A stretch of 29,192 bases of DNA from a virus. The first letter of the stretch is position 1; every line of letters starts with the position of its first letter. Location: the IMG/VR virus record IMGVR_UViG_3300005663_000166, positions 1 through 29,192 of that record; one strand, written 5' to 3'. Shown here piece by piece: positions 1 through 21,439 of this stretch. A model generated the notes under the pieces. The model saw only the letters and a program-made list of their open reading frames with translations. It ran no database searches and was not told the DNA's origin. A program made the translations under genes and the position numbers.

Positions 1-1
1 T

Positions 2-61
2 TGGGCGGAACGGGCTCTAAACCAACGGGGTGAGGCGCAGCCGGCCTCACCCACCCTCTAA
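2..61 (+). CDS. 3' end of an upstream gene, probably portal protein (partial)
   Basis: An open frame enters from the left edge in frame 2 and stops at TAA 59-61, giving about 19 residues ending in PASPTL. It is the longest of the three frames that enter from the left. The gene directly before a scaffold and capsid gene in tailed phages is normally the portal protein, and a polar, Pro/Ser-rich tail is compatible with that. The identity rests only on position, and frame 1, ending at 33, is the alternative. Confidence 0.35.
   Translation, partial: WAERALNQRGEAQPASPTL
28..52 (+). other. 9-bp perfect hairpin before the scaffold gene
   Basis: GGGTGAGGC (28-36) pairs perfectly with GCCTCACCC (44-52) around a 7-nt loop. 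No T-run follows, so it is not a canonical intrinsic terminator. It sits just before the scaffold gene and may be an RNA processing or stability element. It could also be incidental within the coding end of the preceding gene. Confidence 0.35.
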
Positions 62-110
62 CGGGCGTGATAGCGAGTAGCTGCCGCCGAGCTGCAAGGA
101 GGTAGGAACC

Positions 111-806
111 ATGACGGAAGAAGGCAAGGACAAAGAAGGTGGAGCTGGTGAAGGTGACGACGAGAGGATGGTCCCCCTGAACGTAGTCACGTCTATCAGG
201 GCCGACGAGCAGGCCAAGCGCACAGCCCTCGAAGCTCAAATCGAGGAGCTAGAAGCGGAGAAGGATGTTCTGAGTCGGGCCGACGAGCCTGCGTATACGG
301 GGAAATACGACGAGGAGGATAGGGCTGAGGTCAAGAGCATCGCTCAGGGCTTGCTGGAAGACCAACTTGGCCCATTGGTGAGCGTCATTGAGACGCTCGT
401 AGGGAACACTCAGAACAGCGCCCTGAAGTCCAAGCTGGAGGGCGTTGAGGGTCTTCCCGCAGAGATGACCGATGCCCTGTTGGGGAAGGTGGAAGATTAC
501 AGGGCAGAAGCAGCGAAGCAGGGGCGAACCATTACACACCAAGAGGCCCTTGGTTATCTGCTGGTCGAAGACCTCCCCGGCGTCGTCAAGTCAATCAGCG
601 AAACCTCCGAGGAGAGCCGCAAGACGGCTCTGGACAAGAAGAGGGCAGCCGCGATGGTCGCTGCCGGCGGCGGGCTCCCTGTAGGCGTGCCAACCGAGTT
701 GGACAAGGACTGGCACAAGTCTCTGCCTGATGGGGTGGACCCCGCTGATTTCGCTCTGGCGAGGGTGCTGGAGGCGAGCGGCGTAGAGCTTCCCGGCCCC
801 TCTTAG
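111..806 (+). CDS. Putative capsid scaffolding protein
   Basis: This 231-aa protein is acidic and helix-prone. It has a Glu/Asp/Lys-rich N-terminus and a coiled-coil-like stretch near residues 30-55. It lies immediately upstream of the major capsid gene, where most tailed phages encode the scaffold that templates procapsid assembly and then leaves the head. The start is fixed by a perfect Shine-Dalgarno, AAGGAGGT at 96-103. No protease motif is visible, so this looks like a scaffold only and not a protease-scaffold fusion. The call depends on composition and position, since scaffolds are poorly conserved; a head-associated protein of other function is possible. Confidence 0.65.
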   Translation: MTEEGKDKEGGAGEGDDERMVPLNVVTSIRADEQAKRTALEAQIEELEAEKDVLSRADEPAYTGKYDEEDRAEVKSIAQGLLEDQLGPLVSVIETLVGNTQNSALKSKLEGVEGLPAEMTDALLGKVEDYRAEAAKQGRTITHQEALGYLLVEDLPGVVKSISETSEESRKTALDKKRAAAMVAAGGGLPVGVPTELDKDWHKSLPDGVDPADFALARVLEASGVELPGPS

Positions 807-820
807 ACAAGGAGGGCTAA

Positions 821-1801
821 ATGCCTGGAGGAGCGACGATAACCACAAAAGTCCTCGCGGAGACACTCTTTGAGCTGTCCCCGGTAATGGAGGACAACAT
901 CTCGCAGATGATTCCCCTGTTTTGGTTTCTCAAGGCAAGGGGTCAGGTGATTGAGGTGGATGGTGGTTATGACTTCCGTGAAAGGCTGGCGTATGGAAAG
1001 GGTTCGTTCGGCTACTACGAGCGATTCGGGACCCTGGACACCACGCCGCAGGAAGGATTTACACACGCCATCTACTTACAAAAGCGGTGCGCCGGGTCAA
1101 TCGTGGTCGAGGAATGGGACGTTCTTCAGAACAAGGGTCGCCATGCGATTGGGCAGCTCGTGAAGGACACCCAGCTACAGACCGAGATCACGATGGCCGA
1201 GGAGCTGGGTGAGGACCTTTTCAATGACGGGTCCGACTCGGCCCGGATTCATGGGCTTCAGCACTTGGTAGCTGACGCCCCGACCTCCGGCACTGTCGGT
1301 GACATCGACAGGTCGGATGCAACCAACTCGTGGTGGCGGAACAACATCTACACCACCGCGCTCTCCACGTTCGAGGCCACCTGGCTCAACGGCTGGCACG
1401 TCTTTCAGCGCCTCTACATCGCTGCCAGCAAGCGGGCAAACGATGGTCCGAACTTCATCGTGACTACCGATGACATCTATCGGTACTACACGGCAGGCCC
1501 CGCCGACAGGCTCCGGTTCCAGGGCGGCACACCCACTCAGATGGCCGAGGCCGGGATGGCGGTGGCTGGTTTCCACGGAGCAGCGGTCACGTTCGACGCG
1601 TTCTGCCCCGCAAGCCACGCCTACTTCCTCAATACCAAGTATTTGAGGATGAAGGCTCTGCGTGGCGCAAATTTCGTGATGAAGCCAACGAAGACTCCAG
1701 CGAATCAGCCGTGGGTCGACATCGGAGCCCTCGTCCTGATCGCACAGCTCACCATGAGCCAAGCTGCGAAGCAGGCCGTGGCCACCAACATCACAGGTTA
1801 G
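821..1801 (+). CDS. Major capsid protein
   Basis: This 326-aa protein has the length and composition of an HK97-fold phage coat protein. An N-terminal helical part (LAETLFELSP) leads into a mixed alpha/beta body. The segment HGLQHLVADAPTSGTVGDID followed by a WWRN element is familiar from coat proteins of uncultured phages, and a hydrophobic strand near the end (WVDIGALVLIAQL) resembles the axial domain. It follows the scaffold gene by 14 nt, and its ribosome site is AAGGAGGG at 809-816. It would form the icosahedral shell after scaffold-directed assembly. No N-terminal delta domain or maturation protease is evident. The role is well supported by position; the exact coat family was not verified. 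Confidence 0.85.
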   Translation: MPGGATITTKVLAETLFELSPVMEDNISQMIPLFWFLKARGQVIEVDGGYDFRERLAYGKGSFGYYERFGTLDTTPQEGFTHAIYLQKRCAGSIVVEEWDVLQNKGRHAIGQLVKDTQLQTEITMAEELGEDLFNDGSDSARIHGLQHLVADAPTSGTVGDIDRSDATNSWWRNNIYTTALSTFEATWLNGWHVFQRLYIAASKRANDGPNFIVTTDDIYRYYTAGPADRLRFQGGTPTQMAEAGMAVAGFHGAAVTFDAFCPASHAYFLNTKYLRMKALRGANFVMKPTKTPANQPWVDIGALVLIAQLTMSQAAKQAVATNITG

Positions 1802-1815
1802 GGAGGAGTGAAACG

Positions 1816-2334
1816 ATGAAGCGACTACTGAACATCATCGCTACATTGGCCCTCATCCTCGTGATGGTGGGGCCAGCGTGGGCTACAGAAAGCCCAATGG
1901 TAACGGGCTTAACGGATACGGATTATCACGATGTGACTGTCCGAAACGTCTGCTACAAGGCTGCGGTTCAGTGCACGATGGCACCGGGCGACGTCGTTGT
2001 ATGGGTTCCAAACGCGACGTACCCCGGCAAGGACGTGAGCAAGATGGACGTGGCGGACTCTACCCGTATCGCTGGAGTAATCATCGGCGATACGGCGGGG
2101 AACTCAACAAGTATCGCCTCTGGCGAGTACGCCAAGATGAGGATTTGGGGCTACTACGCCTTTGTGAGGACGACGGGCTCTCCTGTTATCAACGCCACGC
2201 TCGGCGCATCGACAACGGCCGGTGTGGCTGCGGCCGGGAACGGACTCGGCCAGGTCATCACGCTCGCGCCCGACTCCACGAATACGAACCTCCGTGGGGT
2301 GATGATCCGGACGATGGGCAACTGGGCCGATTAA
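1816..2334 (+). CDS. Capsid decoration-like protein with Sec signal peptide
   Basis: This 172-aa protein starts with a textbook Sec signal peptide: MKR, a hydrophobic core through VMVG, and an AWA cleavage site near residue 23. The mature part is small and beta-rich (TGLTDTDYHDVTV, a YAKMRIWGYYAFV strand, Gly/Ala/Thr-rich loops), like head decoration or stabilisation proteins encoded right after the coat gene. The ribosome site GGGAGGAG at 1801-1808 selects the ATG at 1816 over an upstream in-frame extension. An exported decoration protein is paradoxical, because capsids assemble in the cytoplasm. It may instead be a periplasmic protein, or the N-terminus may act as a membrane tether. Confidence 0.55.
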   Translation: MKRLLNIIATLALILVMVGPAWATESPMVTGLTDTDYHDVTVRNVCYKAAVQCTMAPGDVVVWVPNATYPGKDVSKMDVADSTRIAGVIIGDTAGNSTSIASGEYAKMRIWGYYAFVRTTGSPVINATLGASTTAGVAAAGNGLGQVITLAPDSTNTNLRGVMIRTMGNWAD

Positions 2335-2395
2335 GGCCCTAGCGGCTGAGGGAGGGCCTTCTCGCCTTGCATGGGGTGATTTGAGGCTCTCCCTC
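2333..2395 (+). promoter_or_regulatory. Mutually exclusive RNA hairpins (attenuator-like)
   Basis: AAGGCCCT (2333-2340) is perfectly complementary to AGGGCCTT (2353-2360). An overlapping segment, GAGGGAGGGCC (2348-2358), pairs over 11 bp with one G-U to GGCTCTCCCTC (2385-2395). The two stems share 2353-2358 and cannot form together. This lies in the 79-nt gap before the zinc-ribbon and O-antigen-ligase-like genes. No T-run follows either stem, so translational or processing control is more likely than intrinsic termination. Confidence 0.4.
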
Positions 2396-2413
2396 GGGCC
2401 GGGGGAATGAACG

Positions 2414-2572
2414 ATGGGCATGGCGTGGGGTCCGACCCCGCCTAGGTGTTGGGGGTGCTGTAGAGACTACGGCATAAAGAAGTCTCTGCTCACGCATATT
2501 TGCTTTCTCTGTTGGGCCAACGGTATTACGGAGTGGCGTGAAGACCAGTACTTCCACGGCCAAGGGGACTAA
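2414..2572 (+). CDS. Small zinc-ribbon protein
   Basis: This 52-residue frame encodes a Cys-rich protein with a CWGCC motif near residue 12 and a CFLC motif near residue 30, a two-knuckle zinc-ribbon spacing. It is followed by an acidic/aromatic tail. It has only a weak G-rich ribosome site upstream and ends 3 nt before the ATG of the next gene, so it may help couple translation of the O-antigen-ligase-like protein. Function is unknown. Small zinc ribbons recur several times in this genome. Confidence 0.55.
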   Translation: MGMAWGPTPPRCWGCCRDYGIKKSLLTHICFLCWANGITEWREDQYFHGQGD

Positions 2573-2575
2573 GTG

Positions 2576-3919
2576 ATGGGCTGGGCGGTCGTTATCTTTC
2601 TGCTGATTCAGTCGTTCTTCCTCATCCCGCAGGGCGGGCTGGAGGGGTTCGCGGCCGTGCCTAAGCTCGGCTCTAGGGTAAGTGTCCCTAGAGAGCTTTT
2701 GACCCTGTGGGCGATCTACGCGCTCATCGGCTACGTTGTGATAAGGGGGACCGTCCGAAAGCCCCCCAAGTGCCTTTTCTTCGGGCTCTTCTTGGTGTGG
2801 GTGGCGATTCAGGTCATCTACCCCACGTCTTACTATTTCAAACAGGTCTTCTTCTACATCAATCCGTTCGGCCTGAAAATCTTCCACTACATCCTATTCT
2901 TCAGCCTAGGGTGGTGGATGCTGTCCGGGGTCCTGACCAGACGCGATGTGAGGATTATCGGGACGGGGCTGGTGGGGATCGGGCTCATCCACTCGATACT
3001 CGTCATCGCCCAATGGGCGGGCCATCCCCCAATTCTCTGGCTTCCCGCCAAGTGGATACCAGTTGACCCGAAGCACGTTGTAGGCTTCGTCGGCAACACT
3101 TGGCACTTGGCGGCGTACCTCGCCTTTATCGTACCTCTGGCTTTAGACCGATTCCGCTCCACATGGGCCAACTTGATTGTCTATCTCCTGCTCGGGCTCG
3201 CCCTCTACTACACCAAAAGCACGGCGGCGGTCATAGCTGCTGTCGTGGGGGTCTTGGTTTACGGAGGGAGGGAACTCTTTCGGGGCTGGGCGGCATTTGC
3301 GATGGTCGCTCTTATCATAACTGTTCCTGCATACATCATTGCCGTGGACCGGCCCGGACAGTTCGATTGGGACCGCTACTACATCTGGAAGACCACGCTC
3401 AAGATGGTGGCTCCGCCTGGGTTCAGGACCGAGATACAGATGGTCAAGCGAGACGAGCGGTTTCTGCCTCCAGCGACGGCCTTTGCAATCGGCTACGGTC
3501 CGTCAGGGTATCAGAGGGTTTTCCCGGCGATGAGCGGGAGGGTCAACGGAAACGTCTATTTCAACTATCAGGGGTCGGGGTCGGCGTTCATCCATTCCGA
3601 CGGCAGAAGGCAAGACCTCACCAAGACCGCTGGATATGCTCGGCCCACTCCAACTCTCCATGCCCACAACGAGCCGCTGCAAGTCTTGTTCGAGCATGGG
3701 CTTATCGGCTTGCTCCTGGTTGCGGGTACCGTGTGGTGGTTCGTTAGGCGGACAAGTCATTACCTCTTTCTTGCCGAGGATAGTGAGGTTAGGAGGCTGG
3801 TCGGCGTTCTCTCAGCCATAGGGACGCATAGCCTTCTGTTCCAGACCTTTCACGTTGCACAGCTCGCCACCGTGGCCGTCGTGGGCGCGGCTGGCCTGTT
3901 CGTGCTGACGGAAATGTGA
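2576..3919 (+). CDS. O-antigen ligase/polymerase (Wzy_C) family membrane protein
   Basis: This 447-aa polytopic membrane protein has about ten hydrophobic segments and a large extracytoplasmic loop at about residues 255-360. The loop holds RYYIWKTTLKMV and AIGYGPSGYQRVFP, matching the usual R...W...and G.GP..F..FP pattern. It is followed by HAHNEPLQVLFEHGLIG starting at His362, the signature of the Wzy_C/WaaL domain (HN..L....E.G..G). WaaL transfers O-polysaccharide from undecaprenyl-PP to lipid A core, and Wzy polymerises repeat units; both act in the inner membrane. The gene sits inside the virion operon between the decoration and fibre genes. Here it may remodel host LPS to exclude other phages or stop progeny re-adsorbing. 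GTG 2573 is an alternative start. The family is confident; ligase versus polymerase is not. Confidence 0.85.
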   Translation: MGWAVVIFLLIQSFFLIPQGGLEGFAAVPKLGSRVSVPRELLTLWAIYALIGYVVIRGTVRKPPKCLFFGLFLVWVAIQVIYPTSYYFKQVFFYINPFGLKIFHYILFFSLGWWMLSGVLTRRDVRIIGTGLVGIGLIHSILVIAQWAGHPPILWLPAKWIPVDPKHVVGFVGNTWHLAAYLAFIVPLALDRFRSTWANLIVYLLLGLALYYTKSTAAVIAAVVGVLVYGGRELFRGWAAFAMVALIITVPAYIIAVDRPGQFDWDRYYIWKTTLKMVAPPGFRTEIQMVKRDERFLPPATAFAIGYGPSGYQRVFPAMSGRVNGNVYFNYQGSGSAFIHSDGRRQDLTKTAGYARPTPTLHAHNEPLQVLFEHGLIGLLLVAGTVWWFVRRTSHYLFLAEDSEVRRLVGVLSAIGTHSLLFQTFHVAQLATVAVVGAAGLFVLTEM

Positions 3920-3929
3920 GGACTAGCCA

Positions 3930-4262
3930 ATGGCCCAGCCAACCATAACACCCGGTTCGTTCAATAAGTTAGTAGCATCCGCCGGGGTCGCCGAGGCGTT
4001 GAGTTCGGTCTCCCTCAAAGTCATGTGGTTCCTCGTGCAGGCGATTCCCGGTAACACGGGGAACGTATTCCTTGGCGCGAGTGACGTTGACAGCACAAGG
4101 GGGCTTGTCATAGAGCCTTCAATGTCGCAGCCGGTCAACCTGGATGTTCCCGACGCCTTCCATGCCGGTGGGCTCAGGCTTGACCTGTCTGAGTGGTACA
4201 TCGACGCCGCCAATAGCGCTGACGGCGTTGTTGTCCTCTACGGGCTGTATCCGGGGGATTGA
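3930..4262 (+). CDS. Small beta-rich virion structural protein
   Basis: This 110-aa protein starts MAQPTITPG and continues with short beta-strand segments (SLKVMWFLVQAIPGNTGNVF and LRLDLSEWYIDAANS). Phages often encode such small beta-sandwich proteins, which report as head fibre or neck components. The shape of the sequence, roughly a scaled-down external protein with no membrane segment, fits a decoration or adsorption accessory role. Its stop TGA shares the A of the next gene's ATG, coupling it to the fibre-like gene. Family assignment is by resemblance only. Confidence 0.5.
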   Translation: MAQPTITPGSFNKLVASAGVAEALSSVSLKVMWFLVQAIPGNTGNVFLGASDVDSTRGLVIEPSMSQPVNLDVPDAFHAGGLRLDLSEWYIDAANSADGVVVLYGLYPGD

Positions 4263-5932
4263 TGATGAATAAGAACCGAAGCTCACTCAACCAAGTCTTC
4301 GCCGTGGTTTTAATTGCGGCGATGGCCCTTGTCTACCAGTTCACCCCCCGGTTCTTGCACGTCGGCAGTCCAGGGCCAGCGATGGCGGGGTTCGGCTCGG
4401 CGAGGGGCTTTCCTTCCATTATCACCAAGGCCATCAGGCACACCGCAGACATAACCCTCAACGATGATGTGCGGTTGTTTTGGGGCACCGACCAGGACGC
4501 CAATTGCGAGTTGAACGGCGGGACTAACTTCATCTGCTCCGGGCCATCAGGCGCCATGGCGCAGTTTGGCAAGGGTGCTAATCAGGTAAACATTGGCGAT
4601 GGTGCCGGGACAAATGCGCCCATATTTCAGCTTTCAGGAGATGGGGATTATACTTTTGGAACCGTTGGGACAACCGATGCGACTATGAAAGTGTCGGGCA
4701 ATACTGAAAAGTTTATATTCCAAGACGGTAGTACGATTGGCTTTGTCATTGACGGTGCGAACCAGCTAGTTGCTGGCGATAAAGCTTCCGGCGGCGACCT
4801 CACGCTGATGAGCACCACGGATGCGACGAAGGGCAGTATTCTTTTTGGGACCAGCGGTTACGATGAGACCAATAACCGCCTTGGCGTAGGGACGGCTGCG
4901 CCGGATGAAGACTTGGAGGTTTTCGGGGCCTCTTCCATACTGCGCCTTCGTGACTCAGGAGCCACAGAAGATGCAACTCTAGCTTTCATGGAATTTGGAG
5001 GCACAGATACCGGGTCTTGGGTTAGAACAGGATATGTGGGTGACATAAGTAGTGCAAATAGACATATACATCTACAAGCAGAACTCAGCGAGTTGCATCT
5101 TGGAGATTCTTCCGGAGGTTCGGTATTGGTGTTGTCAGGGGGTCAGGTAGGTATCAATGCAGCTACACCAATCACCCCCTTGACGCTTGGCAGCGGCACA
5201 TTTAGCATTAAGGAGCTGGCTAGCGCAGATGCGCCTACGGCTGCATACGGCCAGCTATGGGTCAAGACCGCCACCCCCAACACCTTGCAGTTTACGAATG
5301 ATGATGGCGCAGACTTTCCCTTAGGCGACCATGATGCGCTCGTAAACTTCGCCGCAGGCGAACACGTAGACGAGGCCGCGATTGACCACGGTAGCATAGC
5401 GGGTCTTGCGGACGACGACCACACGCAATACATCTTAGTTGGTGGGACTAGGGCTTTTACAGGCGAGCAGAGCATGGGCACGAACAAGCTCACCAACGTC
5501 GTAGACCCAACAGTAGACCAGGATGCGGCTACGAAGAAGTACCACGATGACAACGCTGGTGGTGGGGCACTTCAAACCGTATCCTTTGGAGGAACTTGGG
5601 ATGGTGCGGGGAACTTCCTGTGGTCTAACGGTCTATCGGCCGATGGCGACGAAGCAACCAGCACATCACAAACCAGGCATGGAGCCGTAGCGGGAACAAT
5701 ACAGAAAATGGTGTTCTATCACGCGGGCAATCTGTCGAGCAACAACGCCACCATCAAAATCCACGTCAACGGTACCCCGGCAGCCACGAAAACCGCAACT
5801 GGGGCCGCCGCCACGGCTGATGTATTTAACGCTATCGGCGTGGCCGTGAATGACGGCGACATAATTGAAGTGGAATTTGATGCAGGCTCTACGAATCCTG
5901 GCCAGTCAATGGTCACAATCATGATTGAGTAG
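4262..5932 (+). CDS. Tail-fibre-like protein with N-terminal membrane/signal segment
   Basis: This protein is about 556 aa. Residues 12-30 form a hydrophobic segment after MMNKNR, a signal anchor or signal peptide. A repetitive beta-rich shaft follows, with NRLGVGTAAPDEDLEVFGAS near residue 204, the GIGT..P.. knob motif common in trimeric phage fibres. Near residues 379-430 is the classic fibre element GLADDDHTQY, then TKLTNV-like and DQDAATKKY motifs. The C-terminal about 120 residues (from TVSFGGTWDGAG) look like a jelly-roll/lectin-type head ending in EVEFDAGSTNP. It probably binds the host surface or attaches to the tail. A hydrophobic N-terminus is unusual for a fibre. ATG 4265 is an alternative start. 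Confidence 0.75.
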   Translation: MMNKNRSSLNQVFAVVLIAAMALVYQFTPRFLHVGSPGPAMAGFGSARGFPSIITKAIRHTADITLNDDVRLFWGTDQDANCELNGGTNFICSGPSGAMAQFGKGANQVNIGDGAGTNAPIFQLSGDGDYTFGTVGTTDATMKVSGNTEKFIFQDGSTIGFVIDGANQLVAGDKASGGDLTLMSTTDATKGSILFGTSGYDETNNRLGVGTAAPDEDLEVFGASSILRLRDSGATEDATLAFMEFGGTDTGSWVRTGYVGDISSANRHIHLQAELSELHLGDSSGGSVLVLSGGQVGINAATPITPLTLGSGTFSIKELASADAPTAAYGQLWVKTATPNTLQFTNDDGADFPLGDHDALVNFAAGEHVDEAAIDHGSIAGLADDDHTQYILVGGTRAFTGEQSMGTNKLTNVVDPTVDQDAATKKYHDDNAGGGALQTVSFGGTWDGAGNFLWSNGLSADGDEATSTSQTRHGAVAGTIQKMVFYHAGNLSSNNATIKIHVNGTPAATKTATGAAATADVFNAIGVAVNDGDIIEVEFDAGSTNPGQSMVTIMIE

Positions 5933-5940
5933 GTGAAATC

Positions 5941-6033
5941 TTGGACGACCTGCGGAACTGCGACAATGCGCTAGACCACGACTTCAGCGGGAGGGCGTGC
6001 AGGCCCCGCAGTAGCGTGGTCATAAGTCAATAA
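5941..6033 (+). CDS. Possible 30-aa peptide (TTG start)
   Basis: The 100-nt gap before the adaptor gene contains a TTG-initiated frame of 31 codons ending in TAA, whose last A is the A of the next ATG. That TAATG junction is the same kind used between genuine genes here. The ribosome site is weak (GTAGGTG). The peptide is Asp/Arg/Cys-rich and resembles nothing familiar. It may simply be leader sequence translated for coupling, or not translated at all. Confidence 0.2.
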   Translation: MDDLRNCDNALDHDFSGRACRPRSSVVISQ

Positions 6034-7010
6034 TGAGAACCTTTCTACAAATGAAGCAGGCCCTACAGCGCAGGGCCAGAAACACGACGATATCAGAGGT
6101 TTCGTCTTCGCTGCAGGATTGGGCCGATGACGCCCGTGACTTCCTTATGGCGTGGCCCTGGGAGAGCCTCAAGAGGACGTGGACGCTCACCACGGTTGCC
6201 GACAAGGCCGAGTACGGGATAGCCGACCGCATCAGTGATATCTACGTCGTCAAGTTCACGACCGACATTGAGAAGATTCTTAACCCTGCCGACATGCAGG
6301 AGATTGACCGGGGCGACCCCAACCCAAGTACGACCACCTATCCCGATTTCTACTATTTGAACGGTGTGAGCAATGTCCAGAACCAGCCGTCCAGTGGGTC
6401 GGTAATTAGGGTTCAGTCCTCTGCGGGGGCCGACACGACTCAGAGCGTCCGGGTGACGGGCCTCGTAAGCAGCATCATCCGAACCGAGGAAATATCCTTG
6501 AACGGCACCACGCCCGCCTCCGGAAGCCTGACCTTCACCGAGATACTGGAGCTTGCCCTTGATGCGGTCTGCGCGGGCTTTGTGACCATTGACAGCAACT
6601 CAGCCGCCGTCACCAACGGGATAATCCCCCCGAACAAGATTTCTCAGGAGTTCACCATATTTGGGCTCTATCCCACGCCTTCGACGGCTGGCAAGACCCT
6701 CACGATAAGGGGCCACGCCGAACTCCTCCCACTCAGGAACGATGAAGATATATGGCCCGAGCAACTCCAGCAGTTGGCCATGCAGTACATCTATGCTCGT
6801 TGGCTGGAGTACGACGGCCATGAGCGAGCTCCGGGTGCGATGGCCGAGCTCACAAATCCGCTAAATGGAGAGGCGGGGCCGATGCTTCGAAGGGCGCTGG
6901 TTAAGGAAAGGCGCAGCCTCGACAGGACGCGCTATATCAGGGGCGGTAGGCGTGGAAAGCTCCGCTGGCCGCGACTGCTTGACCAGGACTTTCCCGTGGG
7001 GACTTGGTGA
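6033..7010 (+). CDS. Head-tail adaptor (SU10/P22 gp4-type) protein
   Basis: This 325-aa protein begins with the helical element MRTFLQMKQALQRRARNTTI, then a WADDARDFLMAWPWESLKR segment and TLTTVADKAEYGI. That pattern is typical of podovirus and SU10-like adaptor proteins that dock on the portal and form the first tail ring. The middle holds beta-sheet insertions (residues 120-200), and the C-terminus is basic (RRALVKERRSLDRTRYI...). It lies directly before the nozzle-like gene, and the two share TGATG. Seen: the N-terminal helical/WPW motif and gene order. Inferred: ring assembly below the portal. A T7 gp11-like tail-tube role is a related alternative. Confidence 0.7.
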   Translation: MRTFLQMKQALQRRARNTTISEVSSSLQDWADDARDFLMAWPWESLKRTWTLTTVADKAEYGIADRISDIYVVKFTTDIEKILNPADMQEIDRGDPNPSTTTYPDFYYLNGVSNVQNQPSSGSVIRVQSSAGADTTQSVRVTGLVSSIIRTEEISLNGTTPASGSLTFTEILELALDAVCAGFVTIDSNSAAVTNGIIPPNKISQEFTIFGLYPTPSTAGKTLTIRGHAELLPLRNDEDIWPEQLQQLAMQYIYARWLEYDGHERAPGAMAELTNPLNGEAGPMLRRALVKERRSLDRTRYIRGGRRGKLRWPRLLDQDFPVGTW

Positions 7011-8812
7011 TGGCGAGACGATATAGACCATTTCCCGTCCTGGCACCCCTTGGGGTGAACAACAGGGACCAGCGTATCGGTGGGTTCCTGCGAGAGGCCA
7101 CGGACTCTCGAAATGTGGACTTCTTCGGTTCCTACATCGAGAGCCGAAAGGGCCGAAGAAGGTACAACACGGCTAGGAACGGCGATGGGCTGGACATAGT
7201 GAGCTTCCACTTCTTCAGGGATGAAAACGGTGTCGGCTATTTATTCAAGGTCGCCGGAGACAAGATATTCAAGGCAGACTCCTTGCTTCCCAATGGGACG
7301 TGGACGCTCAAGAAGGATGGCCTGACCGTTTCCGATGCACGGATGACCTCCGTTCCCTTCTACGAGGGGACCGAGATTATGCTGTGTCTGACCAACGGCT
7401 CCGATCCGCCCCTGAAGTACAGCCACGTCACGGATGCGATTTCTGAGCTTTCTACCGATAGCAATGTTCCCAAGGGTGCGCTTTGCTTCGTGCTTGCCCA
7501 AAGGCTGTTTATCGGCCCGATGGCTGCTGCCAATGAAGACCTTACATTCAACCACTCGGACTTCCTGGACGCCATAAGTGGCACGGCCTGGAGCGATGGA
7601 AACAATTTTATCCAGGTGGAGTCTCGGGGGGTTGCCAAAGCCGCCGTGACGATAGGTGACTCTGCCTACATCCTGACCGAGGACGAGATCCACGCTGTCC
7701 CTACGACAGGCGACGCCGTGAGTCCATTCAGGGTGGTTCAGGTGGCCAACGTGGGGACCCTCAGCCAGGAGAGCGTCAAGGTCATCCCAGGAGAGGGCTA
7801 CTTCTGTTTCTTGGGCCGGGATGGGATGCCCTATTCATTCGACGTACAAAACAGGCTGGTTCCCATCGGGTCGAAGATTCCAGCCGTTCTGCTTGGAAGC
7901 GACGACTCGGACTACGGTGGCCTCAACAAGAACAAGTTCGATGGCGCTGTAGCTGTCCACGACAGCGAACTCGGGCGGTATCGTCTATACGTTCCCAACG
8001 CAGGGTCGAGCTACAACAACCTGGTTCTCGACTATTACTACCGGGTTCGGCTGTTTGACCTTGACCCCACAACAAAGACCGGGACGGGGCACTTGCTCGG
8101 CCAATGGTTCTTCTCGGACTGCGATGTGAGGGCCGTGGTCGAGGCGCTTGATGGGAACAATGACCGTGTGATTTACACCTCTTCCGGCAAGTCGGATGAG
8201 ACGACAGGGACCGTGGCGATAGACTCCGATGGCAACGTCACGGGGACCGACACCGTTTTTGACCAGTCGATGGTCGGCGATGACTTCATAATCAGCGCCG
8301 GAACATGGGTTGTGAGTCAAGTCGATACAGGCACGGCTCTTGTTCTTACCTCATACGATGGCGGGACTCAATCAGCCGGCACGAGCTACACGATATCGAG
8401 GCGCGGGCTGGCGTACCAGGAGGATTACGGAACGAACGACGATGGAAAAGCCATTGACGCAAAGTATTGGACCCGCTGGTTCGATTTCGGAATGATGGGA
8501 GAGAACAAATTCGTACCTGAAGCCAATGTCCTGACCCGCAAAAGCGGGGCCTGGGACCTAGATGTGTATCACATGGTCGATTTCGAGGACGGCGAAGGGC
8601 TGAGAAACTTAATCGACCTCACGCCCGTCGGCGCTGTGGTTGGGACAGCCATAATCGGAACTGCCGTTATCGGCTCCGAGGGGGCCGTGCCGTTAATCGT
8701 TCCGACGAACACTTATGGCCAAGCGGTGAGGTATCGCATAGGCAACGGGAACCTTGACCAGACGTTCGCTTTCTACGGGATTATCCCGAAGTTCTTGCCC
8801 GCAATTTTCTGA
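7010..8812 (+). CDS. Tail nozzle / DNA-stabilisation (P22 gp10-like) protein
   Basis: This 600-aa protein opens with FPVLAPLGVNNRDQRIGGFL, then REATDSRNVDFFGSYIESRK and GRRRYNT, the hallmark start of phage tail nozzle or packaged-DNA stabilisation proteins. The body has repeated beta-strand segments suggesting a beta-propeller (LCLTNGSDPPLKY, AYILTEDEIHAV, YFCFLGRDGMPYSFD). The C-terminus is a beta domain (AVRYRIGNGNLDQTFAFYG). It would close the portal-adaptor channel and carry fibres. It sits between adaptor and accessory genes, with TGATG coupling at both ends. The upstream in-frame TTG/GTG lie inside the adaptor gene, so the ATG is preferred. Confidence 0.75.
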   Translation: MARRYRPFPVLAPLGVNNRDQRIGGFLREATDSRNVDFFGSYIESRKGRRRYNTARNGDGLDIVSFHFFRDENGVGYLFKVAGDKIFKADSLLPNGTWTLKKDGLTVSDARMTSVPFYEGTEIMLCLTNGSDPPLKYSHVTDAISELSTDSNVPKGALCFVLAQRLFIGPMAAANEDLTFNHSDFLDAISGTAWSDGNNFIQVESRGVAKAAVTIGDSAYILTEDEIHAVPTTGDAVSPFRVVQVANVGTLSQESVKVIPGEGYFCFLGRDGMPYSFDVQNRLVPIGSKIPAVLLGSDDSDYGGLNKNKFDGAVAVHDSELGRYRLYVPNAGSSYNNLVLDYYYRVRLFDLDPTTKTGTGHLLGQWFFSDCDVRAVVEALDGNNDRVIYTSSGKSDETTGTVAIDSDGNVTGTDTVFDQSMVGDDFIISAGTWVVSQVDTGTALVLTSYDGGTQSAGTSYTISRRGLAYQEDYGTNDDGKAIDAKYWTRWFDFGMMGENKFVPEANVLTRKSGAWDLDVYHMVDFEDGEGLRNLIDLTPVGAVVGTAIIGTAVIGSEGAVPLIVPTNTYGQAVRYRIGNGNLDQTFAFYGIIPKFLPAIF

Positions 8813-9042
8813 TGGGCAAGAGGAGGACGTTCAGGCCCGCAAGCCCGTATTCGGACGTTCCGGGCCTTGGTAGGGACTTAGAGAGGGTTGCCGACCTCTT
8901 CTTGAGGCCGTCGGCGTTCCGAAGGACGCCCTCTAGCGCGACGGACAAAGGCAATCCGGGGGATTGGGCTTACGATGCCAGCTATATATACATCTGCGTT
9001 GACACGGACATTTGGAAGAGGGTGGCTATCTCGACTTGGTAG
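8812..9042 (+). CDS. Small tail-associated protein
   Basis: This 76-aa protein has a basic N-terminus (MGKRRTFRP) and a C-terminal motif GDWAYDASYIYICVDTDIWK ending RVAISTW. That strand-rich ending is very common in phage tail and fibre-associated proteins of the form GD..YDD.Y.YVC...N.WKR. It is coupled to the nozzle gene by TGATG. The next gene begins inside it (68-nt overlap). It is probably a minor tail component; the function is not known. Confidence 0.6.
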   Translation: MGKRRTFRPASPYSDVPGLGRDLERVADLFLRPSAFRRTPSSATDKGNPGDWAYDASYIYICVDTDIWKRVAISTW

Positions 9043-9421
9043 GCTCGCTCTCTTCGTTGTCTTGGTGGTGGGCCTTGTCGGGTGCTCCCAGGATGAGCCG
9101 ATATTCGTCAAGGCAGTCTCGGGGTTGTCCATTGAGGCCCGGATCGTCGAGGTCCATGCGGCCACCAAGGAACTGAGGGGCAATTACGAGGCCCTAAAGC
9201 TCCGATACCGTGAAATCGGGTCGGACCGCACCTACGCCCGAAGGATTCTTGAGGGCGCGGATGGGGACATAGCGATTCGGCTCAATTTCATCATCTCCAT
9301 GACCAACGACCTTTTGAAGGCCCCATCACCCTACAACCTCATCAGGGTTCAATGGGAGATAGGGGAGACTGCAAAGCTCATGTTTGACCAGAATCGACGC
9401 ATCAACCGCTTGAAGGAATAG
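8975..9421 (+). CDS. Phage-encoded lipoprotein with coiled coil
   Basis: This 148-aa protein has a positively charged leader and a hydrophobic stretch (LALFVVLVVG) that ends in the lipobox GLVGC (Cys37). It would be lipidated and anchored in the envelope. The residue after Cys is Ser, favouring outer-membrane sorting by the +2 rule. The mature part is helical and charged (ATKELRGNYEALKLRYREI). The first 68 nt overlap the preceding gene in another frame, and TTG 8999 is a shorter possible start. Candidate roles are superinfection exclusion or an outer-membrane spanin, but no inner-membrane partner is adjacent. Confidence 0.65.
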   Translation: MPAIYTSALTRTFGRGWLSRLGRLALFVVLVVGLVGCSQDEPIFVKAVSGLSIEARIVEVHAATKELRGNYEALKLRYREIGSDRTYARRILEGADGDIAIRLNFIISMTNDLLKAPSPYNLIRVQWEIGETAKLMFDQNRRINRLKE

Positions 9422-9425
9422 TGCC

Positions 9426-9566
9426 ATGAGTTGGACAGAATGGATTCTTTCGTTGTTCCGCAGGAAGAAAAAGCCGCTGGAGCCCATTGAGCCGGTCGAG
9501 CCTGCTGATTGGGATGAGTTCGAGCGGGGGAAAGAAGAGGAAAAAGATGAGACGGATAACTCTTAG
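9426..9566 (+). CDS. Small amphipathic/acidic protein
   Basis: This 46-aa frame begins MSWTEWILSLFRRKKKPLEP, an amphipathic helix followed by a basic patch. It then becomes very acidic (FERGKEEEKDETDNS). AAGGA at 9413-9417 gives a good ribosome site. The C-terminal codons overlap the signal-peptide gene that starts at 9547 by 20 nt. It could be a membrane-surface peptide. No homologue is recognised. Confidence 0.5.
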   Translation: MSWTEWILSLFRRKKKPLEPIEPVEPADWDEFERGKEEEKDETDNS

Positions 9567-10575
9567 CCTCATTGCCCTGGTCCTTGCCGCCGCCTCGCCC
9601 GCGTCGGCGGGAACGCTCAGTCTGCCGCGTGTCTCCACCGGGGATACCATCACAGCCAGTACGCTTAACGATCCCCGCGCTGCGACTGAGGCCGTGGTTA
9701 ACAGCCTTGAGAACGTCAACATCTCTGCCACCGCCGCTATCGACGAGAGCAAGATACTTCACAAGTCCGGTGGACACGACCACAGCGGGGGCGCTGAGGG
9801 AACCAACGTCACCGGCGTAGCCCTTGAAGGTTACATCACCGGCCTTTGGATTGATAACAATTCCGGCGATGCCAGCCACGATATCGACATAGCTACAGGC
9901 AGGGCCAACGACTCCACCGATTCCACCAACATAGCAGTATCGGCCACCCTGACTGCCGCAATCGACACCCAGGGCGCTAATGGGATGGACGATGCCGACG
10001 ACGTAGCCAGTGATGCCGAGGCAGACACTTGGTACGATATGCTTGTAATCCAGACCTCGGATGGTGCCACCCAGGCGGGCTACTACAACAAGAAGGGCAC
10101 GTCCATGAACTGCCCGAGCGGGTACGCGGGTTGTACCTTCAGGGTCATTGGCTATGTGCGGACGGACTCATCGAAGAATATCCTAGCGTTCGGTCGTGTC
10201 CGGAACTACTTCAGCTTCGACGACCCGATTCAGGATGAGAGTGATGGGAGCATTGTAGATAACACCGCTGAGACTGCGACGCTTACTGTGCCACCCAGCA
10301 CCTTGGCCCATGTGCGGCTTTATATAGTCAACAATGGGGGCAACAATGCCATAGCGGGTTTAGTCAGACCCGTCGGTGGGGCCGGCACCACATCAAATTA
10401 CGACGAGGCTACTGTTATAGAACCTTATTCCATAGCCAATGTAGGCGTTTCTGGCGAAGCTCTAGTCCCTGCAGATGGCTCATCGCAAATCGAATACATG
10501 GGTCGTGCCAGCTCTGGGACTCTCACGATAGAGATAAACACCCTAGGTTTTTGGGACGATATTCATGTGCATTAA
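9547..10575 (+). CDS. Fibre/appendage-like protein with Sec signal peptide
   Basis: This 342-aa protein starts with a clear Sec signal (MRRITLSLIALVLAAASPASAG, cut after ASA). It then has LPRVSTGDTITASTLNDPRA and NVNISATAAIDESKIL, a pattern common in phage tail-fibre or appendage proteins, followed by GGHDHSGG. The C-terminal about 120 residues are a beta-sandwich (ATLTVPPSTLAHVRLYIVNN through LTIEINTLGFWDD). The ribosome site is GAGG within the previous gene. A fibre with a signal peptide may be displayed on the infected cell or tethered to membrane rather than assembled in the cytoplasm. The alternative is a structural protein whose hydrophobic N-terminus is an anchor. Confidence 0.65.
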   Translation: MRRITLSLIALVLAAASPASAGTLSLPRVSTGDTITASTLNDPRAATEAVVNSLENVNISATAAIDESKILHKSGGHDHSGGAEGTNVTGVALEGYITGLWIDNNSGDASHDIDIATGRANDSTDSTNIAVSATLTAAIDTQGANGMDDADDVASDAEADTWYDMLVIQTSDGATQAGYYNKKGTSMNCPSGYAGCTFRVIGYVRTDSSKNILAFGRVRNYFSFDDPIQDESDGSIVDNTAETATLTVPPSTLAHVRLYIVNNGGNNAIAGLVRPVGGAGTTSNYDEATVIEPYSIANVGVSGEALVPADGSSQIEYMGRASSGTLTIEINTLGFWDDIHVH

Positions 10576-10590
10576 GAGAGAGATAAACTG

Positions 10591-10827
10591 ATGGGTTTTG
10601 ACTGCGCCAAGTGCGGAGCGTGCTGCAAGCTGTTTAACCCGTTTACGGGCCTTGGGCGTTGCCCTCAACTGACGGCAGATGGCCTCTGCTCGATATATGA
10701 CGAAAGGCCAGATATTTGCCGGGTCGATGAGATGGCGAAGCGGTCCGGAGTTCCAATTGACGAGTATTACAAAATGGCCGAACTGTCTTGTGTGGCGCTT
10801 AAAGAGGCCGTGGAGGTAGCGGCATGA
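10591..10827 (+). CDS. YkgJ-family Cys-cluster (zinc/iron-chelating) protein
   Basis: This 78-aa protein contains FDCAKCGACCKLF at residues 3-15, then a CP...LCSIYDERPDICR block, and one further Cys. That is the CxxCxxCC...CxIYxxRPxxCR signature of the YkgJ/UPF0153 zinc- or iron-chelating family. Some members are linked to flagellar or protein modification, but the biochemical role is generally unknown. It sits between a fibre-like and an internal virion protein gene and ends in the ATGA overlap with the latter. Its phage role is unclear; modification of a virion protein or metal handling are possibilities. Confidence 0.8.
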   Translation: MGFDCAKCGACCKLFNPFTGLGRCPQLTADGLCSIYDERPDICRVDEMAKRSGVPIDEYYKMAELSCVALKEAVEVAA

Positions 10828-11570
10828 CATCACAAATATTCAGAATAAGAGGGCTTTGGAACAGGGCTGCTTGCTTGGTTGCAACGGTCGCCACTTGGGG
10901 ATTCGTGATTTTCGACCTTTTTCATTCCCAACCCCCTGGCATTGTATATGCTATCGAGCCCATGACGGCAATCGCGCTTGCCAGCCTTGTGGCTGGTGGT
11001 GCAAGCACAGCGAGTAAGTTTTTTGGCTCCAAGAAAAAGGAGACCACGACCAGGCCCCCCGTCGATCCGGGGATCGCCACGGGGCAAATCCAAGGCATTG
11101 AGCGGAGCCTTGGCGGGAGACCCGACTTTAATCAGTTCCTTCAAGGTCCGGGCAAGAGCCTATCCGAGGCCATAGCCCGTATCATGTCCGCCCCGGTACG
11201 GAAACAGGCCGGAAGGGCGAGTGGCCAGCGAAGGGAGACGGCCCGACGGCTCGGGACGCTGAGAACAGGCGGGTTCACGCGGCGGAACCAGATGGCGAAC
11301 GTGGACCTCCAGGGGACGCTTTCCGGTATCAGCGACCGCGCCTTTCGTACCCTTCCAGGCATATTCCAGCAGACCGAGCAAGCCCCCTTCCAGCAGAGAA
11401 TGAACTCCATCCTCCGGCTTCTCGGGATTCAATCTGGCCAGGGACCGACAACCACAACAACTACAGGTGGCGGGGGGGCTGGCCCCGCACTCGCCGCTGG
11501 TGGTGAGGCTGCTGGTGACTTTGGGAACCTCTTAGTCATGCTGGAAATGCTGAAGCGGATGCCACAGTAA
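10824..11570 (+). CDS. Internal virion / membrane-associated virion protein
   Basis: This 248-aa protein has a hydrophobic N-terminal stretch (LVATVATWGFVIFDLF, about residues 18-33) and a second weakly hydrophobic element, TAIALASLVAGGAST. A basic helical segment follows, then a Thr/Gly-rich linker (TTTTTTGGGG) and a short C-terminal helix. Its small size, membrane-active N-terminus and place before two large internal proteins match T7 gp14-type ejection proteins, which form the outer-membrane pore. ATG 10962 would give a shorter protein without the first TM; ATGA overlap with the upstream gene supports 10824. The assignment is from architecture and order, not motif. Confidence 0.55.
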   Translation: MTSQIFRIRGLWNRAACLVATVATWGFVIFDLFHSQPPGIVYAIEPMTAIALASLVAGGASTASKFFGSKKKETTTRPPVDPGIATGQIQGIERSLGGRPDFNQFLQGPGKSLSEAIARIMSAPVRKQAGRASGQRRETARRLGTLRTGGFTRRNQMANVDLQGTLSGISDRAFRTLPGIFQQTEQAPFQQRMNSILRLLGIQSGQGPTTTTTTGGGGAGPALAAGGEAAGDFGNLLVMLEMLKRMPQ

Positions 11571-11586
11571 GGCGCGGGGTGAGCCG

Positions 11587-12912
11587 GTGCCTTCTCCAAT
11601 CGCAAAAATCACGGATGCCCTGCTCCAGCTCCAGAAGCTACGGGTCAGCCAGAGCAAGACCCGCCGCAAGCGCGAGAAAGAACTGTCGGCGGGTGAACAG
11701 AAGCTGGCTGACCAAAGGCTGAAGTTCCTAGAGAAAAAGCTCAAAGCCACCCAAGCCCAGCTAAAAGAGGTCTCAACCAAGAGGACGAAGGCTGCCGAGG
11801 CCGACGTGGACTTTAGGCCAGGTGAGCCTCTGCACGAGCAGGCAGGAAGGATTGCCAAGCAGAAGCGTCTGGGTAAGGCGCGGACAGGGACCAAGGCAGC
11901 CGTTAGAATCCTCCGCGAGCGGGAACAAGAGTTCAAGCGGCTGGGGGGTAGCGAGGCGGATGCGAAGCGGCTTAAATCGTCGCAGTTGAAGGCCCGAATC
12001 GTTTCCATGAAGGGCGAGGCGAAGAAAAAGGCGGCAGATGAGAAGTCGCTGAAGGCGAGGCGTGTCAAGGCGGCGACGGCTGGCTTACCGTTCCGGGAAA
12101 GCGATACGGACCTCAGCCTCGCCAAGAGGATAGGGGGAAGGAAGAGGCTTACCACCGCTCGGGGCAAGGCTCAAGCGTCGATTCGCAAGCTGAAAGAACG
12201 TGAGGAGGAGTTCAAGCGTGGGGGCGGGGACCCGAGAGTCGCCGAGACCATGACATCATCCCAGCTTCGTTCCGGCATAAAACGCCAGAAGAAGGTCCGA
12301 TCTGATGCCGACAAGCTGGCCAAGGCCAAGGCGTCTCATATCAAGGAAGTCGATGGCCTAATCTCGACCGACAAGAAGACCGGGGAGCAGTTCGTCAATT
12401 TAACGGAACCCCGCAGAGTCCATCTCCGGAAAAGACAGGAGAGGCTATTCCCCGGCGACCCCGTTCCTCGGTCGCTGTGGGCTCCCGAAGAGGACCGCAC
12501 CCTTGAGGATAAAATAGCCGCGCTAGGGCCCAGGCCAAGGGATCGGGGCGGGCTGGGTCGGCTCCTAGCGAACGTGCCAGGGTTTGGGGGTGGCGAGCTT
12601 GCCGAGGCAGATATTCAGCAGTACGACTTAGCAGTTGAGGAGATTACGAGAACTCATGTGGTTGCACCCGCTACAGGTATTGCTCCCACACAGCCAGGGC
12701 CAGCCCAAACACCCACAGGAAGACAACCCAAAAGGCTGCTCGGGAGAAAAGGGACCGCCCGCCAAGCCAACGGAAAAACAGCCAGAGGAAGTAAGCCGCT
12801 GGTACGCCGAACCAAACAAGATAGGTCAAGTGGTCCAGGAGCTGGTCAACCATTGAAGGCCCCCGCCGAGATGACGGACCAAGAGATACTTAACGCTCTA
12901 GGGGTAAGATAA
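11587..12912 (+). CDS. Basic internal virion (ejection) protein with tandem repeats
   Basis: This is a 441-aa, very Lys/Arg-rich, helical protein with a GTG start after GGTGAG. Residues about 69-160 and 162-250 are two related units at a constant 93-residue offset (FR at 76/169, EREQEFKR at 111 against EREEEFKR at 204, SSQL at 131/224). The C-terminus is proline-rich and basic, with KRLLGRK (382) and KPLVRR (403), resembling motifs in the giant neighbour. It ends in TAATG overlap with that gene. It is likely packaged in the head next to DNA and ejected; DNA condensation is suggested by the charge. No enzymatic motif is visible. Confidence 0.6.
   Translation: MPSPIAKITDALLQLQKLRVSQSKTRRKREKELSAGEQKLADQRLKFLEKKLKATQAQLKEVSTKRTKAAEADVDFRPGEPLHEQAGRIAKQKRLGKARTGTKAAVRILREREQEFKRLGGSEADAKRLKSSQLKARIVSMKGEAKKKAADEKSLKARRVKAATAGLPFRESDTDLSLAKRIGGRKRLTTARGKAQASIRKLKEREEEFKRGGGDPRVAETMTSSQLRSGIKRQKKVRSDADKLAKAKASHIKEVDGLISTDKKTGEQFVNLTEPRRVHLRKRQERLFPGDPVPRSLWAPEEDRTLEDKIAALGPRPRDRGGLGRLLANVPGFGGGELAEADIQQYDLAVEEITRTHVVAPATGIAPTQPGPAQTPTGRQPKRLLGRKGTARQANGKTARGSKPLVRRTKQDRSSGPGAGQPLKAPAEMTDQEILNALGVR
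11791..12336 (+). repeat. Two tandem coding repeats, 279-nt period
   Basis: Aligned residue motifs recur at an exact 93-residue (279-nt) offset within the basic virion protein, with divergent DNA but conserved spacing. This indicates an old internal duplication kept for structural reasons. Confidence 0.6.
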
Positions 12913-15900
12913 TGCCTGCCGTCGCAGAACGCAACAGGAGCCTCGAGCTTCTCTTGGAGGCAGACAGGCGGGGAATCCTCCCTGAAGGTAAGCTCGGCCT
13001 GCTGGATGAGGCCCTAAAGAGGGGCCTGGTTCCATTTGACCCCGAAGGGAGCGGCTTCGATTATGGGTCTGCTGAATCTCGGGGCATCACTAGGGACCCG
13101 GTATCTCAGCACTTCCAGAGTGCGGCACCCTTGGCTCCCGAGGAATCCGAGGCACTAGGTCTGCCGCCAGATACCAGCAGAATACTTAAAGGCAGGAGGC
13201 ACGAAACCTTTCAAGAGGAAGTAGAGGCAAGTCGTGGCCTTGGCCGAGAGATCGTCCAGGGTCCAGATGGCAATTATTATTCCGTTCCCGTTCAGCCTGA
13301 TATTGCCCTGCAAAAAGAGGCCCCGCCCACCATGCGGCAACGTCTCATGGACACCCTTGCGCAAAAGGGGGGCGAGGGCGGTGCCATGCTTGCCGAAGCC
13401 CTTCAGCCACCGGACGTTGGGGGTGGTCCTGGACAGGAGGAAGCGTTCTTAGAGCAGGACCCGCTCATATCCTCCCTGGCTGACATAATGACCGTCACCC
13501 CGCCGGGCGATACGGAGGAGTTTGACGCCGCCACCTTGCCAGAGGGCTACCCCGAGGCGATAGGGGGAATCCTCGGTCAGGCGGCGATAGGAGTGGCTGG
13601 GGCCAACGTCTCAACTGCCCAAGGATTGGCTGAGGTCTTCGGTGTGGACTTGAAGACTCTTGAGGAAATAGACCTCGGCGCAGACCCCGAAGGCGTCCTT
13701 GAGGAAACAGCCCGAACCGCTGGCTCTTTCATGGGCGATATACCCCTGATGGTCGGCCTAGGGAAAGCCGTCTACGCCATTCCTGGACTGAGCGCACTAC
13801 CCCCGAATGTCATCTCCAACGGCATCAAGCACGGCCTCATCTTCATGGGCATCCATCAGGCCAAGGCTGGCAGGGATATAGAAAAGAAGGAGTTGGCCAC
13901 ATCGTTCGCTACGGGCTTTTTGCTCGGATTCCCCCTATCTATGCCCAATTTGCCCGCAAGAGTGGCTACAAGCGGCGGTTTAGGGGCCACGATAGGCTTT
14001 GTAGCAGGGGAAGAGCCACAGCAGATACTCCATCGGGGCCTTTCGACGGCTTTCTTGGGTGCGATCGGGCGGCGCCAACCCCTGGCTGATATCAGGGTTG
14101 ACCGGGCTCCGAGGGCGAAGCGGGTCAGGACGAAGCCCCTGACCGAGGCGCAGCGGGCGGAGGTCGCCAAGGAGGTCAAGGAAGTCAAGCCGGCGGAGGA
14201 GCCTGAGCCTGATATCAGACTTGAGAAGCGGGCCCCCGCCAAGCCAGCACCCAAGGTAGAGGTCCCCACCAGGGAGGAGGTCTTAGCGCGTCGAGAGGAG
14301 GGCAAGGCCCGCCGTGAGCGGACCGAGGAGGCGAGGGCTAAGGCGTCGGCTGCTGTGGCCAAGGCCAAGGTGGAAGGCAGGGACGTGCCGACCCCCAAAG
14401 ATAGACCGAAGGTCAAGCCCCTCGTCAGGAAAAAGCCGGCGGAGAAGAAGCCCCTCCTGCGGAAGGAGGCCGAGGTCGGGATACCCAGTACGTTTGCGGG
14501 GGAGACACCAACGAAGGAAAGCACTCAGAGAGATTTGAAGTCAGGTCGATTCGCTAGGGCCATTCAGCGGGGTGGCATCACGCCAGAGGGGGCCATAGCG
14601 CAGATTGAGAGGTTTGGCCTAAAGGTTCCAGAAGGACTGAGAAAGATAGCCGAGCCTGTTACCGCCCCCAAGAAGCCCCTCCTCAAGAAGGCGAAGCCGC
14701 TTCAGGGCGAGGCAGGAAAGAAGACTAAAGCCTTCGATTCCAAGGGCAGGGAATACGAGTTTCGGTTCCGTGTCGTCGAGGCCAATGAACTTATTACCTC
14801 TCACACCGATTTGCTTGGTGTGAACCCTAGATATCCCCAAGAGCTTCAACCTAGAGAGCGGAGCAGGGCGGCATCAAAGGCCCAAGTCGCCGAACTATCC
14901 CAAAAGCTCCGACCGGAGTTGCTCACAGCAGACACTCAGGCACTCGATACGGGTACACCGATTGTTGGGCCAGACAGCATCGTTGAGAGCGGGAACGCTC
15001 GGATAATTGCAGCCAGAAGGGCATATCGGGGGCACTCGGACTTTGAGGAACGGATGAAATCCCATCTTGTCGAACGGGCCAAAGGCTTGGGCCTTGACCC
15101 CAAGAAGGTCCAGGCCATGAAAAGGCCAATTCTTGTCCGTGAGCGGCTGTCCGAGGTTGACAGGGTGAAGTTTGTTCAAAGGGCCAATGAGCCACCTGTG
15201 GCTCGATTCTCTGCCCCTGAACAGGCCAAATCGGATGCCGCCAAGATAACGACAGAGCAAATCGCCAACATGCCGTCCATTGAGGGCAGCGCCAGAGAGC
15301 TAATCTTGTCTCCACTCAACCGTGAATTCGTCCGCAGCTTCATCGGTGAGCTTCCCACGGCGGAACAGGGAGAACTCCTTGACGCTTCGGGCAAGTTGTC
15401 GGAGCGGGGCGTTCAGCGAATTCAAGCCGCACTCTTTGAACGGCTTTATGGAAGCGACCTCACGCCGATCCTCTCCGAACTCACCGACGTAAACATAAAG
15501 AACATCATGGAAGGGTTGCTGGGTGCCTCGGGCCGTGTTGCCCGCGCCAAGGGCCTGCTTGACAAGGGGGATAGGCTCAAGGAACTAGACATTACCAAAG
15601 ACCTTGTTCGGGTCGTGAGGCTTATCAGCGAGACGAGACGCAAGGGGCTCAAGCTCAAGGATGCGCTCGCACAAAAAGACTTCTTCGGTGCGGAGCTGAC
15701 ATCGTTCCAAAAGACCCTTGCCGAGGAGCTGCAAAAGCGATCTAGGTCAAGGAAGGACATAAGGGAACTCGTCGAAAACTACCACAAATTAGTCGAGGAG
15801 TCTCCTCATCCAGACCAGGAAGCGTTGTTTGGTGCTGAGAAACTGACCAAGGAAGACCTATTCAAGCGAGCGCTCAAGCGCAGAGTGACCGAAGAGCTGT

Positions 15901-20571: not shown

Positions 20572-20647
20572 TAGTTTCTCCTCCCCTTTATAAATTAACA
20601 CCTTGCGCTATTTTCCACAACTTTTTTCCTGAAGGGCCATTTTTCCC

Positions 20648-20676: not shown

Positions 20677-20683
20677 GTCCAAC

Positions 20684-20854: not shown

Positions 20855-20858
20855 TATC

Positions 20859-21427: not shown

Positions 21428-21439
21428 GTGAGTGACCCC

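Follow-up and report, generated by a model that had tools for sequence, protein, structure and literature searches.

A resident Wzy_C/WaaL-fold enzyme gene behind an exported coat-type protein gene in the head operon of an uncultured phage

The enzymes with which the mycobacteriophages Che8, Corndog and Myrna glycosylate their virions are cytoplasmic glycosyltransferases. The Wzy_C domain is common to WaaL ligases, Wzy polymerases and protein O-oligosaccharyltransferases (O-OTases), and therefore does not tell ligase, polymerase and O-OTase apart (PMC12645811). The O-OTases TfpO, TfpM and PglS are often encoded beside their substrates, which is not true of the general PglL enzymes (PMC12645811). 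Phage Wzy proteins that alter the O-antigen or capsule of the host are established, as with Wzy-beta of D3 and the Wzy (Wzy_C domain) of epsilon15 (PMC4815439), and an Acinetobacter prophage encodes its enzyme, Wzy1Ph, near phage-formation genes (PMC13228068).

We analysed a stretch of 29,192 bases, IMG/VR virus record IMGVR_UViG_3300005663_000166 (hereafter the window), in which a Wzy_C gene lies within the virion operon. The features that concern this gene are listed here; L209 denotes IMGVR_UViG_3300005663_000017, a distinct phage that is compared below.

821 to 1801, + strand: major capsid protein (MCP), by profile match to NF033394 (capsid_maj_Podo) and phrog_9953
1816 to 2334, + strand: exported coat-type protein, 172 aa, proposed acceptor; signal peptide MKRLLNIIATLALILVMVGPAWA, followed by T
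2414 to 2572, + strand: doubtful, unsupported 52-aa ORF in the interval from the exported-protein gene to Wzy_C
2576 to 3919, + strand: Wzy_C/WaaL-fold polytopic membrane enzyme, 447 aa (ORF, Pfam, motif, AF2 model)
3374 to 3376, + strand: R267 codon; the residue is invariant both in an alignment of 18 phage and bacterial homologues and in one of 30 phage homologues
3665 to 3667, + strand: codon of H364, catalytic-motif histidine of H[NSQ]x9GxxG, invariant in the alignments
3930 to 4262, + strand: 110-aa protein of unknown function, 42% identical and in the same place in L209
4265 to 5932, + strand: fibre-like protein, possible further substrate; TTG at 4259 is an alternative start; N-terminal export-type hydrophobic segment
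9026 to 9421, + strand: protein from the same operon with a lipobox or signal peptide; the signal is of cleavable type in L209
9547 to 10575, + strand: virion-operon protein with a signal peptide that is conserved in L209, where the homologue is 61% identical

A first-pass annotation of this DNA had proposed a full-length 447-aa Wzy_C enzyme, and such a reading frame is present at 2576-3919. It starts at ATG 2576 (GTG 2573 is an alternative), with a Shine-Dalgarno-like AAGGGG site 8 nt 5' of the ATG. In the hmmscan protein scan, PF04932 (Wzy_C) matched with E=2.3e-7 and 31.1 bits against a cut-off of 31.7; a six-frame search of the window raised the score to 34.7 bits, over the cut-off, and 28 of 30 phage relatives of the enzyme matched the same family at E<=0.001. 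The HAHNEPLQ signature and RYYIW stretch picked out earlier both hold, as HNEPLQVLFEHGLIG fits H[NSQ]x9GxxG intact (H364-N365-x9-G375-LI-G378) and RYYIW begins at R267. Ten TM segments were counted by hydropathy. R267, G306, H364, N365, E373 and G375 are invariant across the 30 phage homologues, and R267, G306, G308, H364, G375 and G378 in an alignment with homologues from Pseudomonadota and Acidobacteriota, which are 18-23% identical to the window enzyme. One Wzy_C-like gene (L331:3270-4382) reads ADNEYVQ at this motif, with Asp in place of His, and is possibly an inactive member.

A profile of the phage and bacterial homologues matched two solved structures, WaaL 7tpg (2.4e-20) and the oligosaccharyltransferase 9rmk (1.2e-17), and a phage-only profile placed 9rmk (5.4e-21) ahead of WaaL (2e-15). 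An AF2 model of the window enzyme, built with the 30 phage homologues aligned, reached pLDDT 75.6 and pTM 0.81; the model made without an alignment (pLDDT 45) was unusable. Foldseek ranked WaaL 7tpg as its top PDB match (probability 1.00, TM about 0.5, E 5e-3) and FtsW second, and the sole confident viral structure match was BFVD A0A3G2KG04 of Arthrobacter phage Faja (probability 1.00, E 1.8e-3). The gene product is accordingly predicted to be an enzyme of the Wzy_C/WaaL superfamily (GT-C), an assignment that we regard as sound, with the Foldseek E-value alone being modest. PF04932 was the only domain found in Pfam, PglL_A and Wzy_C_2 being absent, and neither the curated TfpM model nor the other O-OTase models matched the window enzyme. 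The TfpM model was matched by 4 of the 30 phage relatives, but L216 scored 31 bits where the cut-off is 600, which rules out TfpM equivalog identity. Some family members weakly matched the IctB transporter model.

The MCP scored 197 bits against NF033394 (curated cut-off 80) and, with the fibre-like gene downstream, bears out the placement of the enzyme gene between capsid and fibre genes. The gene at 1816-2334 begins 14 nt past the MCP stop with a strong Shine-Dalgarno site, and the start of its product reads as a textbook Sec signal peptide. In L209 its homologue is 46-48% identical and the signal peptide is conserved (MKRILRSLIVSALIFVMVAPAWA). Neither Pfam nor PHROG yielded a family match for the protein, Phage_cement_2 (PF09956) included, and hhalign gave no significant link between it and the A10 cement group described below; its coat or cement identity is assigned by position only. 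A spacing of 3-10 nt on each side of the Wzy_C gene had also been claimed. Downstream the spacing is indeed 10 nt, but the 3 nt upstream depend on the unsupported 52-aa ORF, which has no counterpart among the ORFs listed for L209 (the gap there is 114 nt); the last well-supported gene, 1816-2334, stops 241 nt before the ATG. The G+C content of the Wzy_C gene, about 57%, is that of its surroundings, in keeping with the earlier remark on composition. At least two more operon proteins, 9026-9421 and 9547-10575, look exported in both the window and L209. The fibre-like protein has its N-terminal hydrophobic segment in both phages, with the signal-peptide rule positive only in the window. Among the window genes scanned with Pfam and PHROG profiles, no other polysaccharide, O-antigen or conversion gene was recognised.

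Several other window genes were noted in passing. The virion operon includes a CxxCxxCC zinc- or iron-chelating family protein (PF03692; 10591-10827), 49% identical in L209. A 1705-aa protein (12912-18029), one stretch of which matches phrog_5143 and phrog_2299 (unknown function), is possibly an internal virion protein, and a 142-aa protein (19602-20030) has a CLEHDIHY stretch that by eye resembles a phospholipase A2 active site. The region 20000-21500 has lower G+C (about 47%) and looks like a later insertion; it encodes an HNH endonuclease (20859-21332) and, on the minus strand, a lipoprotein (20191-20601).

The 43.5-kb contig IMGVR_UViG_3300005253_000592 is 99.97% identical to window positions 1-13916 (13.9 kb) and carries the Wzy_C protein, 100% identical, in the same place. 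The more distant L209 (MCP 68%, portal 48% and Wzy 48% identical) keeps the full order of scaffold, MCP, exported protein, Wzy_C, 110-aa protein, fibre and tail genes. Given the same place in an independent contig and a 48% identical, syntenic homologue in a distinct phage, we consider the gene resident and not newly acquired, as the first-pass annotation had held. The two ends of the 43.5-kb sibling (L003:671-922 and L013:1-252) overlap with 98% identity. The last 325 window bases had no match in the compared 12-kb stretch of the sibling, which may reflect strain variation or imperfect circularisation.

Among the capsid relatives of the window, PF04932 was found in 0 of 80 viral contigs and 0 of 5 phages; the gene is therefore not general to this capsid family. 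Single-protein scans for direct relatives returned the near-identical 43.5-kb contig only. By tblastn, the window Wzy_C protein had no match in 50,697 phages and 72,556 plasmids, and the Wzy proteins of L211, L212 and L214 had none in the 50,697 phage records; neither PHROGs nor a single-protein scan of bacterial genomes yielded a homologue of the window protein. A tree built from 30 phage and 17 bacterial Wzy_C proteins brought 25 of the phage sequences together, with weak deep branches, and the phage label changed 3 times, compared with 14 in shuffles. The Wzy_C family looks long resident in phages.

Because exported virion-operon proteins adjoin a glycan transferase that faces the periplasm, a link between the two was suspected. 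IMG/VR was scanned with a DNA motif for the histidine region and the neighbourhoods were then read, so that the sample is motif-seeded; signal peptides were scored by a simple home-made rule, not by SignalP. Clustering at 60% identity gave 48 Wzy_C clusters, which are not equivalent to independent lineages, and an upstream gene was present in 44. A signal-peptide protein was encoded directly upstream of Wzy_C in 26 of these 44 clusters compared to 11 of 153 other ORFs (P=1.3e-12), and restriction to proteins of <=330 aa with a single hydrophobic segment gave 25/44 versus 8/163 (P=7e-14). When clustered at 30% identity, 8 of the 15 clusters having an upstream gene showed an upstream signal peptide. 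The true fraction is probably higher, since the rule misses evident cases and some contigs are truncated. The directly preceding exported protein is typically 130-330 aa long with a Sec signal peptide, and most junctions with Wzy_C measure from -32 to +13 nt, the pattern of translationally coupled genes. Among the genes two and three positions upstream are those for major head, head protease and scaffold proteins from some ten unrelated PHROG families; in the same motif scan, Wzy_C closely followed the major capsid gene in phages of about ten unrelated capsid families. In dozens of uncultured phages that are unrelated to one another, the same enzyme type comes immediately after an exported coat-type protein. 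Some related contigs have IMG/VR numbers resembling those of isolate genomes (for example 2751185577, 2829002044 and 2829404553).

In 152 capsid-matched loci without Wzy_C, the first two genes after the MCP included a signal peptide in 6 loci and a TM-rich gene in none. Neighbourhoods of bacterial Wzy_C genes served as a further control, small (n=17) and weak, with 6/17 positive without the size filter (P=0.08) and 3/17 with it (P=0.006). Two of these 17 bacterial homologues (L376 and L388) sit directly after type IV pilin genes and are likely TfpO-like pairs. Further small signal-peptide proteins lie downstream of Wzy_C in other phages (L227, L229, L272 and L276), and several structural-module proteins seem to be exported in phages of this kind.

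The reciprocal question was put to A10, one exported family that precedes Wzy_C in other phages, by searching for it in IMG/VR. Wzy_C was the next gene in 16 of 18 groups of stand-alone exported A10 forms, and one of the two exceptions is a locus cut by the contig end that retains a partial Wzy_C. Where A10 continues into a long, fibre-like C-terminal part, Wzy_C followed in 0 of 14 cases, and where the signal peptide is lacking, in 0 of 4 (16/18 versus 0/18 combined, P=2e-8). A non-exported A10 relative matched Phage_cement_2 (PF09956) above the cut-off. Within A10, therefore, Wzy_C goes with the exported, single-domain capsid-cement protein, and the fibre fusion and Wzy_C look like alternatives. 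Exported cement-type domains joined to long fibre-like repeats, never then followed by Wzy_C, were seen in L342, L345, L347-L349, L351-L353, L356-L359 and L361. Exported cement proteins without Wzy_C also occur.

We favour protein glycosylation because Wzy_C is linked to one exported protein, as are TfpO, TfpM and PglS. The window enzyme would then be a dedicated protein O-OTase acting on the exported protein, a reading to which we assign a probability of about 0.5; the acceptor, the glycan donor, incorporation into virions and the benefit are what we infer. The GT-C, WaaL-fold enzyme would reside in the inner membrane. Late in infection, the host Sec system would export the coat-type protein 1816-2334, and perhaps the fibre-like protein too. 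At the periplasmic face, Wzy_C would use H364 and R267 to move a host undecaprenyl-pyrophosphate-linked glycan onto the exported protein, which would end up either on progeny virions, joining them when the membrane breaks down or later, or on the surface of the infected cell. An exported-protein gene does adjoin the enzyme gene, with the doubtful 52-aa ORF between, and its product is the presumptive substrate. It differs from known substrates of dedicated O-OTases in having no type IV pilin motif and in ending in Asp, not in a C-terminal Ser/Thr acceptor. A further point against this reading is that the exported protein must reach a capsid assembled in the cytoplasm. More tentatively, many uncultured tailed phages may share a two-gene head-operon module in which an exported capsid-decoration protein is paired with its own WaaL-fold O-OTase, so that virions would be coated outside the cytoplasm with host lipid-linked glycans.

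The function first proposed for the gene was that of a Wzy polymerase or WaaL-type ligase that, at a late stage of infection, changes the O-antigen or capsule of the host, and so blocks superinfection or stops progeny from sticking to debris. The phage precedents cited above speak for it, as does the direct match of the predicted fold to WaaL, and its superfamily assignment stood. Remodelling of the O-antigen was not supported, as the domain is indecisive, no O-antigen genes were recognised nearby and the enzyme is linked to an exported protein. Such a function leaves unaccounted for both the presence, in unrelated phages, of an exported protein immediately upstream and its near-absence in capsid-matched phages without Wzy_C; the scan of window genes recognised no companion polysaccharide gene, and no homologue was found in the 50,697 phage records or PHROGs. 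We regard it as possible but not best supported, a somewhat unlikely reading over which the dedicated O-OTase is favoured.

More doubtful still is a same-fold GT-C enzyme that transfers some different lipid-linked group or changes envelope glycans at lysis, while the exported protein has a separate role at the envelope. Members of this broad superfamily are only distantly related to the window enzyme, as its bacterial homologues show, and both the FtsW match and the weak IctB matches fit such an activity, but the full active-site motif is conserved with typical spacing and WaaL is the best fold match. That the gene is an assembly chimera or decaying cargo might be thought from a Pfam score at the cut-off and from the lack of such a gene in most capsid relatives; its identical position in the independent contig and the syntenic L209 homologue rule out a chimera, and with catalytic residues invariant throughout we consider this explanation extremely improbable.

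The Wzy_C gene is real and resident, and its domain is known, but its setting is, as far as these searches go, unreported. Literature searches on phage-encoded protein oligosaccharyltransferases or exported decoration proteins returned nothing on point, and the linkage of an exported coat-type protein with Wzy_C across capsid families was not found in PHROGs, the 50,697 phage records or the literature searched. The data suggest that these phages sugar-coat their own exported proteins and do not only alter the host surface. If this is true, structural proteins of phages would receive their glycans in the periplasm, by way of host Sec and from the host's lipid-linked sugars, and one must then ask how a protein that has left the cytoplasm comes to join a capsid assembled there. 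A new set of oligosaccharyltransferases, each paired with a small acceptor protein, would also be defined, and these uncultured phage genes, as a class, would become open to direct test. Should the chemistry prove different, the linkage across many capsid families still stands as unreported in the sources searched.

Compared with described systems, the window enzyme resembles TfpO/PilO, TfpM and PglS in its Wzy_C domain, its polytopic form and its position next to a single exported-protein gene, and resembles TfpO and TfpM in having neither PglL_A nor Wzy_C_2 (PMC12645811). The substrates of TfpO, TfpM and PglS are type IV pilins or pilin-like proteins, whereas here phage coat-type proteins are proposed, and the score is below the TfpM equivalog cut-off. 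Like D3 Wzy-beta, epsilon15 Wzy and Acinetobacter Wzy1Ph, it is a phage-encoded Wzy-type enzyme (PMC4815439, PMC13228068); the D3 and epsilon15 genes lie in seroconversion loci, whereas the window gene sits among the head genes, after the one for an exported protein, and no conversion genes were recognised. With the O-antigen ligase WaaL (PDB 7tpg) it shares the motif, the best fold match and a strong family-profile match, but identity in the structural alignment is 13% and no LPS genes were recognised in the window. The Phage_cement_2 (PF09956) likeness comes through a non-exported protein related to A10, the exported family found ahead of Wzy_C in other phages; unlike that relative, the A10 forms carry Sec signal peptides, and the window protein 1816-2334 has no PF09956 match. 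Che8, Corndog and Myrna use enzymes of their own to glycosylate their capsid and tail proteins (PMC12363180), as we propose for this phage, but here with a periplasm-facing GT-C enzyme and an exported acceptor.
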